A program made the translations under genes and the position numbers. The notes beneath the pieces are model-generated. The model saw nothing but the letters and a program-made list of their open reading frames with translations. It was not told where the DNA came from and made no database searches. This document shows, piece after piece, positions 20,178 to 22,868 of a DNA stretch of 38,609 bases. Numbering within the stretch: position 1 is the stretch's first letter; the number at the start of each line of letters is the position of its first letter. This stretch comes from Betaproteobacteria bacterium RIFCSPLOWO2_12_FULL_68_20 (GTDB lineage: Bacteria; Pseudomonadota; Gammaproteobacteria; Burkholderiales; SG8-39): contig MERQ01000075.1 in NCBI GenBank assembly GCA_001770655.1, positions 1-38,609 on the forward strand, read 5' to 3'.

Positions 20178-20350
20178 GTCTGCGGTGTTGCTTTTCATCG
20201 ATCTCGCGGTTTCCGGCCGTTCTTGCCGGAAACCGCGAGACATTGGGGCGTTCGCATTTACGCGAACGCCTTCGCTATTCGACAGCCTCAATGTCTCGTC
20301 ATTTCCGCAAAAAGAAAAAACGCGGAAATGACGAGATCGTAGAAAGGCGA
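20178..20350. repeat. Structured intergenic repeat, copy 1 (downstream of otsA and of malQ-treY)
   Basis: Roughly 170 bases that recur in direct orientation at 22699-22868. It holds a perfect 14-bp hairpin (20203-20216 with 20226-20239). A 13-bp stem (20237-20249 with 20285-20297) encloses a perfect 9-bp hairpin (20247-20255 with 20262-20270). A 15-bp hairpin (20294-20308 with 20322-20336) has an A-rich loop. The outer segments CGATCTCG and CGAGATCG (20199-20206, 20332-20339) can pair to close the whole as a multi-branch structure. It lies between convergent genes and may act as a bidirectional terminator or be a REP/MITE-like element. Confidence 0.85.
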
Positions 20351-20357
20351 AAAACCC

Positions 20358-22601
20358 CTACTGCCGCGCGGAAAGCAGCCGAGCGCTGCGCGCGCGGGAG
20401 ACGACGCGCCTGCGGTGCCGCATGCGCGAGGCGTCCATCAGCATCCTGCCCGCCCAGCGGTACACGTTGAACTCCTGCACCAGGTTCCTCATGCTGCGCA
20501 TGCGCACGCGCTGCTCCTCGACCGGCATGCCGAGCGCGAGGTGCATCGCCGCCGCGCTCTGCTCGAGGTCGTAGGGGTTGATGATCAGCGCCTCGGCAAG
20601 CTCGCGCGCCGCGCCGGTGAACTGCGACAGGATCAGCACCCCCTGCTCGTCGTCGCGCGCGGCGACGAACTCCTTGGCGACCAGGTTCATGCCGTCGTGC
20701 AGGCTGGAGACGCAGCAGAAATCCGCGGCGCGGTACAGCTCGTAGACGCGCGCCGCGTCGTGGTGCTCGAGCCTGAGCGCGATCGGCTCGTAGCCGGGCC
20801 TGCCGAAGCGGTGGTTGATGCGCTGCGCGAGCACGCGCACCTTCGCCTCCAGGTTCTGGTACTCGTCGATCGAGGAGCGCGACGGCGCCGCCGCCTGCAC
20901 GAACACGAAGCGGCCGATCCAGTGCGGCTCCAGCTCGAGCAGCCGCTCGATCGCCATGAAGCGCTCGAGGATCCCCTTGGTGTAGTCGAGCCGGTCCACG
21001 CCGATGCCGATGCGCGCCTCGGCCGGGAGGCCGAAGCGCTCGCGCACGTTCCTGCGGCAGGCCTCCACCGGCGGCTGCGCGGCGAGCGCGGCGGGCGGCC
21101 ACTCGATCGAGATGGGATAGCGGCGCACCTCGGTCGGGTCGCCGCCGTAGGAGATGGTGAAGGTCTCGCGGTCCACGCGCGCCTCGAGGAAGCGGTCCAC
21201 CGTGTCGAAGAAGTTGTTGCAATGGAACTGCGTGTGGAAGCCGAGGATCGAGGAGCCCAGCAGCCCGTCGAGCACCTCCTCGCGCCAGGGCAGGATGCCG
21301 AACGCCTCGGGGTTCGGCCACGGGATGTGCCAGAAGGCGATCACCGTGGCATTGGGCAGGCGCGCGTGCACCAGGCGCGGCAGCAGCGCGAAGTGATAGT
21401 CCTGCACCAGCACGATCGGGTCCTCGGTGCGCGCCTCGTCCACCACCACGTCGGCGAAGCGCCGGTTGACCGCCTGGTAATGCGCCCAGTCCTCGGCGCG
21501 GAACACCGGGCGCGCGTGCGCGATGTGGCACAGCGGCCACAGGCCCTCGTTGGCGAAGCCGAAGTAGTAGCCCTGCTCCTCCTCCTTGGAGAGCCACACC
21601 CGCCGGATGCGGTACGCGGGCCGCTCCGGCGGCACCATCACGTGGTCGTGCTTGTCCACCGTGTCGCGGTCGGCCGAGCCCGCGCCGTGCGCGATCCAGG
21701 TGCCGGAGCAGGCGCGCATCACCGGCTCGAGCGCGGTCACCAGCCCGCTCGCCGGGCGCTGGATCTCGATCACGTTGTCCTTGCGCCGCATGTGCAGGTA
21801 GGGCTCGCGGTTGGAGACGATCAGCACCTCGTCGCCTTTCAGGTCCTCGCGCAGGATGCGGCGCAGCGCCTCCGGCCCCCAGCTCGTCTGCCCCTCGTCG
21901 CGCGTGCGCCGCTCGGCCTCGAGGTCGCGCACCAGCGCCTGCAGGTCGCGCGCGATCGGGCGCAGCTCCGCGGTCACCTTGAGCCCGCCGCGCGAGCCGA
22001 GCAGCGCCTCGCCCGAGATCACGCGCTTCAGGCCCGCCACCCAGCCGCGCCAGCTGACCTCGGCGATCACCACGGTGATCAGCGCCACCACCGCGGCGAT
22101 GGCGGCGAACAGATAGAAGATGTACTTCTTGGTGTCCTCGCTGCGCCGCTGCACGAAGCTCATGTCGTGCACGATCACCAGCTCGCCGAGCGCCTCGCCC
22201 TCGAAGGAGAGCGGGACCGCCGAGACGTGGATCGGCCCGTGCGCCAGCTCGACCACGCGGTTGCGCGCCGGCGGCGCGCCGCCTCCGGAGCAGCGCACGG
22301 CCTTCGGAAACGCGTAGGTCGAGTGCACCAGCACGCCGCGGCTGTCGCAATAGCCGAGCGCGAAGATGCGCTGGTCCTGCACCAGGCGGTCGAAATAGCG
22401 CTGCACCTTCTGCTTCGCGCCGGCGCGGGTCACCAGCTCCGCGAGCGGCTCCTGCACGGCGCTGGCGATCGACTCGCTGCGCGTATCGAGGTCGCGCACG
22501 AACCACTGCAGCGTCAGGCGGTCGACCAGCGGCACCACGGCGTAGGCGATGGCGGCGAGCGCGATGCCGAGCGGAAGGATGAAGCGCAGGGAAATTCGCA
22601 T
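20358..22601 (-). CDS. otsA: Membrane-anchored trehalose-6-phosphate synthase with sensor-like N-terminus
   Basis: A 747-residue protein whose C-terminal part (about 255-735) is a GT20 synthase joining UDP-glucose and glucose 6-phosphate. Visible motifs are [40 protein letters not shown] and [12 protein letters not shown]. Unlike E. coli OtsA (about 475 residues) it starts with a transmembrane helix (about 8-26), an approximately 135-residue presumably periplasmic domain ([18 protein letters not shown] resembles Cache/PAS-type sensors), a second helix (about 165-190) and a HAMP-like linker. This looks like a synthase under signal control from outside the membrane (inference). It is flanked by the two structured repeats. 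The extreme C-terminus is Arg-rich. The role of OtsB partner fits the phosphatase at 1531-2349. Confidence 0.92.
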
Positions 22602-22698
22602 GGGGCGTGCCCGCCGGGAGGTCCGGCCGGGCCGGTTATTGGGATTTTAGAGCGAAAAATGAAGCACATGGTTCCGTCGCCGGGGGGCGACGGGGAGG

Positions 22699-22868
22699 GT
22701 CTGCTTTTGCTTCTCATCGATCTCGTGGCTTCCGGACGCTTTTGCCGGAAGCCACGAGACATTGGGGCGGTCGCGTTTACGCGAGCGCCTGCGCTATTCG
22801 ACGGCCTCAATGTCTCGTCATTTCCGCAAAAGAAAAGGCGCGGAAATGACGAGATCGGAGAAAGCCCA
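22699..22868. repeat. Structured intergenic repeat, copy 2 (between pfkA and otsA)
   Basis: Direct repeat of 20178-20350 and nearly the only content of the 294-base otsA-pfkA gap. Equivalent stems are 22722-22735 with 22745-22758 (14 bp), 22756-22768 with 22804-22816 (13 bp, one G-T pair) and 22813-22827 with 22840-22854 (15 bp). The closing segments are 22718-22725 with 22850-22857. In the first hairpin two positions differ from copy 1 and both are compensated (C-G to T-A and T-A to C-G), so base pairing has been kept while the sequence changed. The otsA promoter must lie near or within this stretch; I could not identify it. Confidence 0.85.

Follow-up and report, generated by a model that had tools for sequence, protein, structure and literature searches.

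Two structured repeats flanking otsA probably belong to a REP-like family of mobile repeats in uncultured Betaproteobacteria

What are the two repeats that bracket otsA in the genome of an uncultured betaproteobacterium, and what keeps their shape? The stretch in question, which we call the window, is 38,609 nucleotides of Betaproteobacteria bacterium RIFCSPLOWO2_12_FULL_68_20 (contig MERQ01000075.1). An earlier note, made from the letters alone, had pointed to a unit of roughly 170 bases on either side of otsA and had suggested a structured mobile element or RNA. We believe the two copies are probably members of a family of short non-coding, non-autonomous mobile repeats that insert at gene ends, of the kind known as REP (repetitive extragenic palindrome) and REPIN (REP doublet forming a hairpin). 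Our argument draws on copy number, structure, covariation, a junction that is invariant in the window's own genome, and placement at gene ends. To these, relatives add two sites at which congeners differ in having or lacking the element, one subfamily with inverted ends, and another genome in which the unit has grown in tandem.

The unit of about 170 bp occurs as two direct copies, 20188-20358 and 22707-22876, which are 88% alike. Comparing the window with itself gives a match of 130 nt (20188-20317 with 22707-22836, 88% identity) and an extension of 49 nt (20310-20358 with 22828-22876, also 88%), so the pair that the earlier note described is real. The space that copy 1 occupies is bounded on both sides by gene 3' ends: that of a plus-strand gene at 15175-20175, whose product has GH77 and alpha-amylase domains, and that of otsA. 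Copy 2 sits on the other side of otsA, with the 5' end of that gene on its left and the 3' end of a phosphofructokinase gene (22896-23867, minus strand) on its right. The gene between them, at 20358-22601 on the minus strand, encodes a glycosyltransferase of family 20, trehalose-6-phosphate synthase type (PF00982, E 1.8e-120), and is context outside the element.

Each unit has a core of about 141 bp (20199-20339 and 22718-22857) that reads, in order, CGATCTC, hairpin 1, GAGAC, a spacer hairpin 2, GTCTC, hairpin 3 and GAGATCG. In copy 1 the two strands of the closing stem stand at 20199-20205 and 20333-20339, and both are invariant in 13 of 13 copies; the closing stem was offered before only as a possibility. 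Between them lie hairpin 1 (20206-20236), hairpin 2 (20237-20297), whose GAGAC...GTCTC base encloses a variable interior and forms helices 3 and 4 of the covariation analysis, and hairpin 3 (20298-20332), which holds most of the CGTCATTTCCGC palindrome. Fold, alignment and covariation place the same parts in copy 2: closing stem at 22718-22724 (CGATCTC) and 22851-22857 (GAGATCG), hairpin 1 at 22725-22755, hairpin 2 with its GAGAC...GTCTC at 22756-22816, and hairpin 3 at 22817-22850. Outside the core are a T-rich left arm (20184-20198 in copy 1, 22703-22717 in copy 2) and an A-rich right arm (20340-20357, which by the gene calls reaches the otsA stop codon, and 22858-22876, seen in the direct-repeat match). 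The arms extend the closing stem loosely, with 12 arm-arm pairs in copy 1 vs 9.6 for shuffled arms and a mean of 12.2 vs 8.6 over the copies. This is just modestly over the control, two of the 13 copies do no better than it, and we do not press it as evidence.

The three hairpins and the closing stem together make a four-way junction in which every junction base is paired in the folds. Hairpins 1 and 3 are inverted relative to each other, which makes the unit similar to its reverse complement, with matches on both strands as a result. Each of the four strands carries TCTC or GAGA where the stems meet, and this allows two drawings of the junction, 4 bp apart: the RNA fold of copy 1 puts TCTC/GAGA in the closing stem and hairpin 2, and the DNA fold puts it in hairpins 1 and 3. 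The folds go far beyond chance, with z values against shuffles of -11.5 and -7.6 for RNA folds of copies 1 and 2 and of -10.6 and -9.8 for DNA folds of the two strands of copy 1. The long stems said to be common to both copies are confirmed.

The collection of genomic copies by BLASTN that the earlier note proposed does yield more of them. BLAST and a covariance model together find 13 complete and two partial copies in the 3.5-Mb genome, a weak match, C18 (22.9 bits), being left out of the counts. The other 12 complete copies differ from copy 1 by 12-25% over the aligned parts. The longest exact run common to the two copies around otsA is 28 bp, and we see nothing in support of the idea that recombination between direct repeats excises or amplifies the otsA segment. 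The unit on its own has multiplied in tandem in one relative, G001, where eight units form an array with a period of 170 bp. This array (C203; L082 4104-5449) lies between two minus-strand genes and has at least two unit types that partly alternate; close pairs of units are found in G026 and G023.

Mobility is seen in G026, which has 17 copies of a longer version of about 232 bp with imperfect inverted ends. These ends read CTAG(C/T)GTGCTGAGTC... on the left and ...GACTCAG(G/C)ACGCTAG on the right. CTAG forms the end tetranucleotide of 10 left and 11 right ends among the 17 copies; CCAG (five) and CTAA (one) account for the remaining right ends, and the remaining left ends are seven different or unreadable ones. 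A neighbouring gene has its stop codon within the end tetranucleotide at eight of the left and nine of the right ends, that is, on at least one side of 13 copies and on both sides of four. CTAG is rare in the G026 stretches that were read (72 in 176 kb vs 125 expected from trinucleotides), and 28 of the 72, element copies included, stand at a called stop. For four copies the orthologous places could be compared in four congeners, and at two of the four both flanks are kept without the element. One of these empty sites (G064:C47) has a single CTAG where G026 reads CTAG-element-CTAG. At the other two places one flank was comparable, and homology resumes at 15988-15989, inside or beside the end tetranucleotide, in one and at 1683-1729, from the element end onwards, in the other. 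The window's own genome also holds two remnants with CTAG-ended inverted repeats of the G026 type. They lie near 34471-34485 and 49625-49639 (G000:C1); one is the right half of a unit and the other consists of two ends with a right arm between them.

In our searches the repeat is nearly confined to a single family of uncultured Betaproteobacteria. A first covariance model, R1, has matches in 6 of 61 genomes, and a second, R2, at E 1e-4 in 19 of the 98 genomes from the window's own family, spread over 8 of its 26 genera. Matches to the models are given for both strands and so do not count copies. A draw of 399 genomes across the order gives two that match at E 1e-6, both in the window's own family, and one of 398 across the phylum gives, besides the window's own genome, a single weak match from another family. 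Few candidates were scored in each genome (at most 32 in the family search, 8 in the order and phylum draws), under stricter filters, so absence from a genome is not absolute. A scan of named genomes with a sequence pattern finds 24 stretches, 22 of them in six metagenome assemblies labelled Betaproteobacteria or Proteobacteria: RIFCSPLOWO2_02_FULL_66_14, WY5.bin10, 4_1_July_SF_Bin28, 4_1_Oct_SF_Bin27, FW602_bin.24 and UBA6904. The other two, in Rhizobium and Lachnospiraceae, reach 13-16.5 bits with R2, and we regard them as chance matches. Plasmid and phage collections have no match to copy 1 at E 0.01, and neither of two pattern matches in viral contigs is confirmed by the model. In another family of the same phylum, G512:C93 (L215 1-160) scores 40.7 bits and has a similar layout of three hairpins and an outer stem, in which the junction sequence is absent by eye. 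It is possibly an independent analogue and was left out of the counts.

Gene context was counted for 15 places in the window's genome and 23 in relatives, which are part of those found, with tandem groups counted once. The gene caller was home-made and trained on 195 frames with high third-position G+C; Pfam matches bear out its calls at the GH77, otsA and phosphofructokinase genes. Ten of the 15 own places are convergent and five codirectional, while the relatives give 11 and 12, so the pooled 38 places are 21 convergent, 17 codirectional and none divergent. Among the other gene junctions of these stretches, 37 are convergent, 286 codirectional and 61 divergent. Convergent enrichment has a p of 1.2e-10 in the pooled set, and divergent depletion a p of 0.002 pooled and 0.02 in relatives. 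In the own genome the facing stop codons are 15-38 bp from the core, except on one side of a partial copy; in relatives some of these distances are larger, up to 343 bp. Published REPs are placed likewise, with both 3' ends of the convergent genes mostly less than 20 bp away, and GTAG-tagged REPs often supply a TAG stop (PMC3733652, in excerpt).

This placement could also mean that the element serves its host at 3' ends, its transcribed hairpins stopping exonucleases or insulating convergent transcripts, with mobility only its origin. As none of the 38 places is divergent, every one of them has a gene 3' end directed at the element on one side or both. The own copies diverge in stems and loops yet keep the 24 columns of the junction and 97.9% of their pairs, which is unexpected for neutral decay. 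We hold the idea possible, although we would not bet on it. About 15 copies in a 3.5-Mb genome do not make a general 3'-end system, and some places in relatives are 130-340 bp from the nearest called gene. We reject an intrinsic terminator, since by eye neither strand has a run of T after the core; in 20000-23100 there is a sole terminator-like match (vs 1.6 in shuffles), and it is outside the core, at 20360-20379. Purging of insertions that hit a gene or promoter would give the identical placement, as with published REPs in the excerpted PMC3733652.

The covariation that the earlier note proposed to look for is found. Our first alignment, A1, takes the 13 complete own copies over 48 pairs, and the second, A3, takes 29 copies from six genomes, chosen out of more, over 28 pairs in hairpins 1 and 3. 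Double changes that preserve pairing occur at 16 of the 48 pairs in A1, in 31 cells vs 7.5 in shuffles; hairpin 1 has them at 9 of its 12 pairs and hairpin 3 at 5 of its 11. The A1 covariation score is 0.200 vs 0.097 shuffled, and neither this score nor the percentage of paired cells is reached by any of 500 shuffles. A3 has double changes at 21 of 28 pairs (153 of 809 cells) and is 98.0% paired vs 76.8% shuffled, again with no shuffle in 500 reaching score or percentage. Shifting the partner by 1-3 columns destroys the signal in A1, and sliding the partner loses it likewise in A3. The count of further pair types in A3 is not over the shuffles (181 of 500). Between the two window copies themselves, the earlier claim that both differences in hairpin 1 keep pairing stands for the two internal stem pairs; there is a third difference, in the pair at the loop end, which is an A-G non-pair in copy 2 (columns 19-36).

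Does this mean that the structure itself is selected, as was proposed? Compensatory change alone is no proof of it, because template switching in replication, as described for RNA stems in the excerpted PMC8794818, can yield double changes in a single step. Hairpin arms that copy each other could keep the stems perfect by mutation bias, and the cells have the look of this: double Watson-Crick changes outnumber intermediates in hairpin 1 of A1 (18 doubles, 4 G-U, 0 A-C, 2 other), in hairpin 3 (8 doubles, 1 A-C) and in A3 (153 doubles, 8 G-U, 6 A-C, 10 other). The interior of hairpin 2 pairs less well (94.2% vs 98.7% in hairpin 1 and 99.3% in hairpin 3), which either view allows. Mutation bias alone fixes no sequence, yet the 24 junction columns of A1 have 0 differences in 1872 comparisons, where base differences are 23% in the hairpin-1 stem, 11% in the hairpin-3 stem and 31% in loop 1. 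The fixed junction is a stronger sign of constraint than the compensatory changes, and template switching fails to explain it. In the window's genome the constrained junction and the drifting stems are separable. We think it rather unlikely that mutation bias, in place of structural selection, accounts for the covariation, though the step from compensatory change to selection in the earlier note is not forced.

Another reading of the same folds is a strand-specific structured RNA, either a small RNA or a cis-regulator. Both window copies have a very stable RNA fold, and for the 13 own copies the consensus fold is better on the given strand (-75.4 vs -66.2 kcal/mol), with 32 G-U vs 4 A-C cells. 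Since what is A-C on one strand becomes G-U on its complement, these counts would speak for strand, but the structure was chosen by folding that strand, and RNA folding favours pairs that suit the folded strand; for this reason we read the excess as weak or no strand preference. When the complement is folded the counts are 17 vs 5. The excess on the given strand is mostly in hairpin 2 (17 G-U, 2 A-C), hairpins 1 and 3 jointly having 4 G-U and 1 A-C. Across the six genomes of A3 the strands are equal (-52.2 and -52.0 kcal/mol) and departures from pairing are even, while in the G026 subfamily the complement folds slightly better. For single copies, the fold energies of one strand and the other come within about 7 kcal/mol. 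At the five codirectional own places the element is oriented with the genes at two and against them at three. The copies have no Rfam match, and the single type of promoter-like site scanned for is absent. The evidence is mixed, strand preference is weak or absent, and we read the constraint as mainly at the DNA level. Such an RNA seems to us improbable.

Several observations weigh against a mobile REP-like family. By eye, neither inverted ends nor a target duplication can be seen in the window's own copies, and a relative is the one place where mobility is shown. Even there, the second clean empty site has no clearly corresponding CTAG in the congeners, and the two ends of single G026 copies often differ. 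A listing of end motifs in six incomplete assemblies shows, by eye, no end pair around a longer element and no autonomous partner; only matches confirmed in sequence count in this listing, because counts with two mismatches are no higher than those of a reversed-pattern control. The junction of the G026 version is kept no better than its stems (base differences of 3.3% at the junction, 1.2% and 3.1% in the stems of hairpins 1 and 3, 14.4% in the middle), and 13 of its 204 hairpin-3 cells are A-C. The depletion of divergent places is not significant in the own genome alone (p 0.11), and the places are not fully independent. Finally, Y1 transposase genes occur in five of the six genomes tested, and in G002 and G023 one such gene is on the element's contig, 4.7 and 5.4 kb away.

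How, then, would the repeats have come to their places? As non-autonomous elements they would have spread and survived where nothing was interrupted, at gene ends where no gene or promoter was broken. An enzyme acting in trans may recognise the junction or the ends, perhaps working on folded DNA, and the fixed junction would most simply be the recognition site of whatever moves or binds the unit. CTAG may be duplicated on insertion; in the G026 subfamily the unit sits between CTAG-like tetranucleotides, whose TAG is often the neighbour's stop codon. At least one junction change is present in 5 of the 17 G026 copies, and the contrast between this uniform set and the diverged own copies, which have no junction change, suggests that the latter may have been filtered or maintained. 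The window's diverged copies may be old insertions kept by constraint, and they may now act as 3'-end hairpins that protect or separate the flanking messages. A bolder version would have the repeats recognised as a fully paired DNA four-way junction that branch-migrates by four base pairs and moved by an enzyme that reads the junction bases, with arms drifting under template-switch repair and one subfamily landing at CTAG with stops kept; as a whole we consider this version speculative and hardly likely.

The family is useful beyond this locus. More uniform and more diverged sets of copies are both at hand for study, and the family lends itself to the question of whether palindromes covary through selection or through template switching. 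Landing at a target that often holds stop codons suggests a simple way into a packed genome without gene breakage. REP-like repeats without a known transposase, such as the CGTC class and, as tested, this family, leave the mechanism of spread open.

Other features of the window deserve mention. An alpha-glucan cluster adjoins otsA at 2466-20175, with alpha-amylase/CBM48 proteins, GlgE, a maltogenic-amylase protein with a match to the maltokinase N-terminal cap, and a 1666-aa protein that combines GH77 and alpha-amylase domains. At 33006-33380 on the minus strand there are two Rfam matches to group II introns, D1D4-3 (134.8 bits) and D1D4-1 (64.9 bits).

Is the repeat a member of a class already described? 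The earlier note recognised no named family beyond its CGTCATTTCCGC palindrome, and at gathering and relaxed limits nothing in Rfam comes near any family threshold at the copies. No title or abstract among the top matches listed from open-licence papers describes the repeat, which may be in print elsewhere. In REPINs the excerpted PMC3116915 describes an inverted palindromic doublet with conserved ends and a variable spacer with compensatory changes, extragenic and in tandem clusters, and a legend to a supporting figure names a 'clover' fold. The unit is like this in having two inverted REP-like palindromes around a spacer. It is unlike REPINs in that those hold conserved 16-mers overlapping REP sequences and accompany genes for RAYTs (REP-associated tyrosine transposases), whereas here we find neither a tag nor a RAYT link, and in the window's genome the conserved bases are at the bases of stems. 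PF01797 genes number 0 in G026, the copy-richest genome (86% complete), one in the own genome and one to three in four others, and eight Y1 loci with about 1.5 kb of flank hold no element (best 8.5 bits). As a mobiliser we reject the own genome's RAYT candidate. This gene, the only PF01797 gene found there (G000:C80 53074-53400, L027), is flanked by GGGGTCAGATCAAC-like inverted ends and has no cloverleaf repeat in its neighbourhood.

The dimers of GTAG- and CGTC-tagged REPs come closer in some respects. According to the excerpts of PMC3733652 they are placed at the ends of convergent or unidirectional genes, their ends can supply a TAG stop, some lie within outer palindromes, and the CGTC class is likewise without a known transposase. 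The gene-end, non-divergent placement of our 38 places is a feature in common, and hairpin 3 of the window copies reads CGTCATTTCCGC, so the palindrome singled out by the earlier note does resemble the published CGTC class. CGTC REPs have an unpaired tag, an 8-9 bp stem beginning AT and a CCA tail, whereas here CGTC is paired in the own-type copies and replaced in other subfamilies, the stems have 11-16 pairs, and the junction is a four-way one of fixed sequence. Neither GTAG nor CGTC is conserved as an unpaired tag in the unit, where the conserved CGATCTC, GAGAC, GTCTC and GAGATCG are paired in the folds. Although doublet, structured spacer, outer palindrome, gene-end placement, TAG supply and tandem clusters have all been described for a GTAG-tagged REPIN moved by a RAYT or a CGTC-tagged REP (PMC3733652 and PMC3116915, in excerpt), the absence of such a tag, of a PF01797 gene from the copy-richest genome (86% complete) and of the element from about 1.5 kb around the eight Y1 genes, together with the longer stems and the low copy number, makes membership in either class very doubtful.

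A third comparison is with miniature inverted-repeat transposable elements of the IS5 type. No matching autonomous element is seen in the six incomplete assemblies. Inverted ends, mostly at CTAG, are present in the 17 G026 copies, though neither they nor a YTAR target duplication is seen in the window's copies. The likeness is in that subfamily, whose unit of about 232 bp has its inverted ends at CTAG, the commonest duplicated target of IS5 in E. coli (PMC5493358, in excerpt). As tested, the family lies outside the published REP classes, with no tag and no linked transposase, and we take it as a variant of the REP-like kind.

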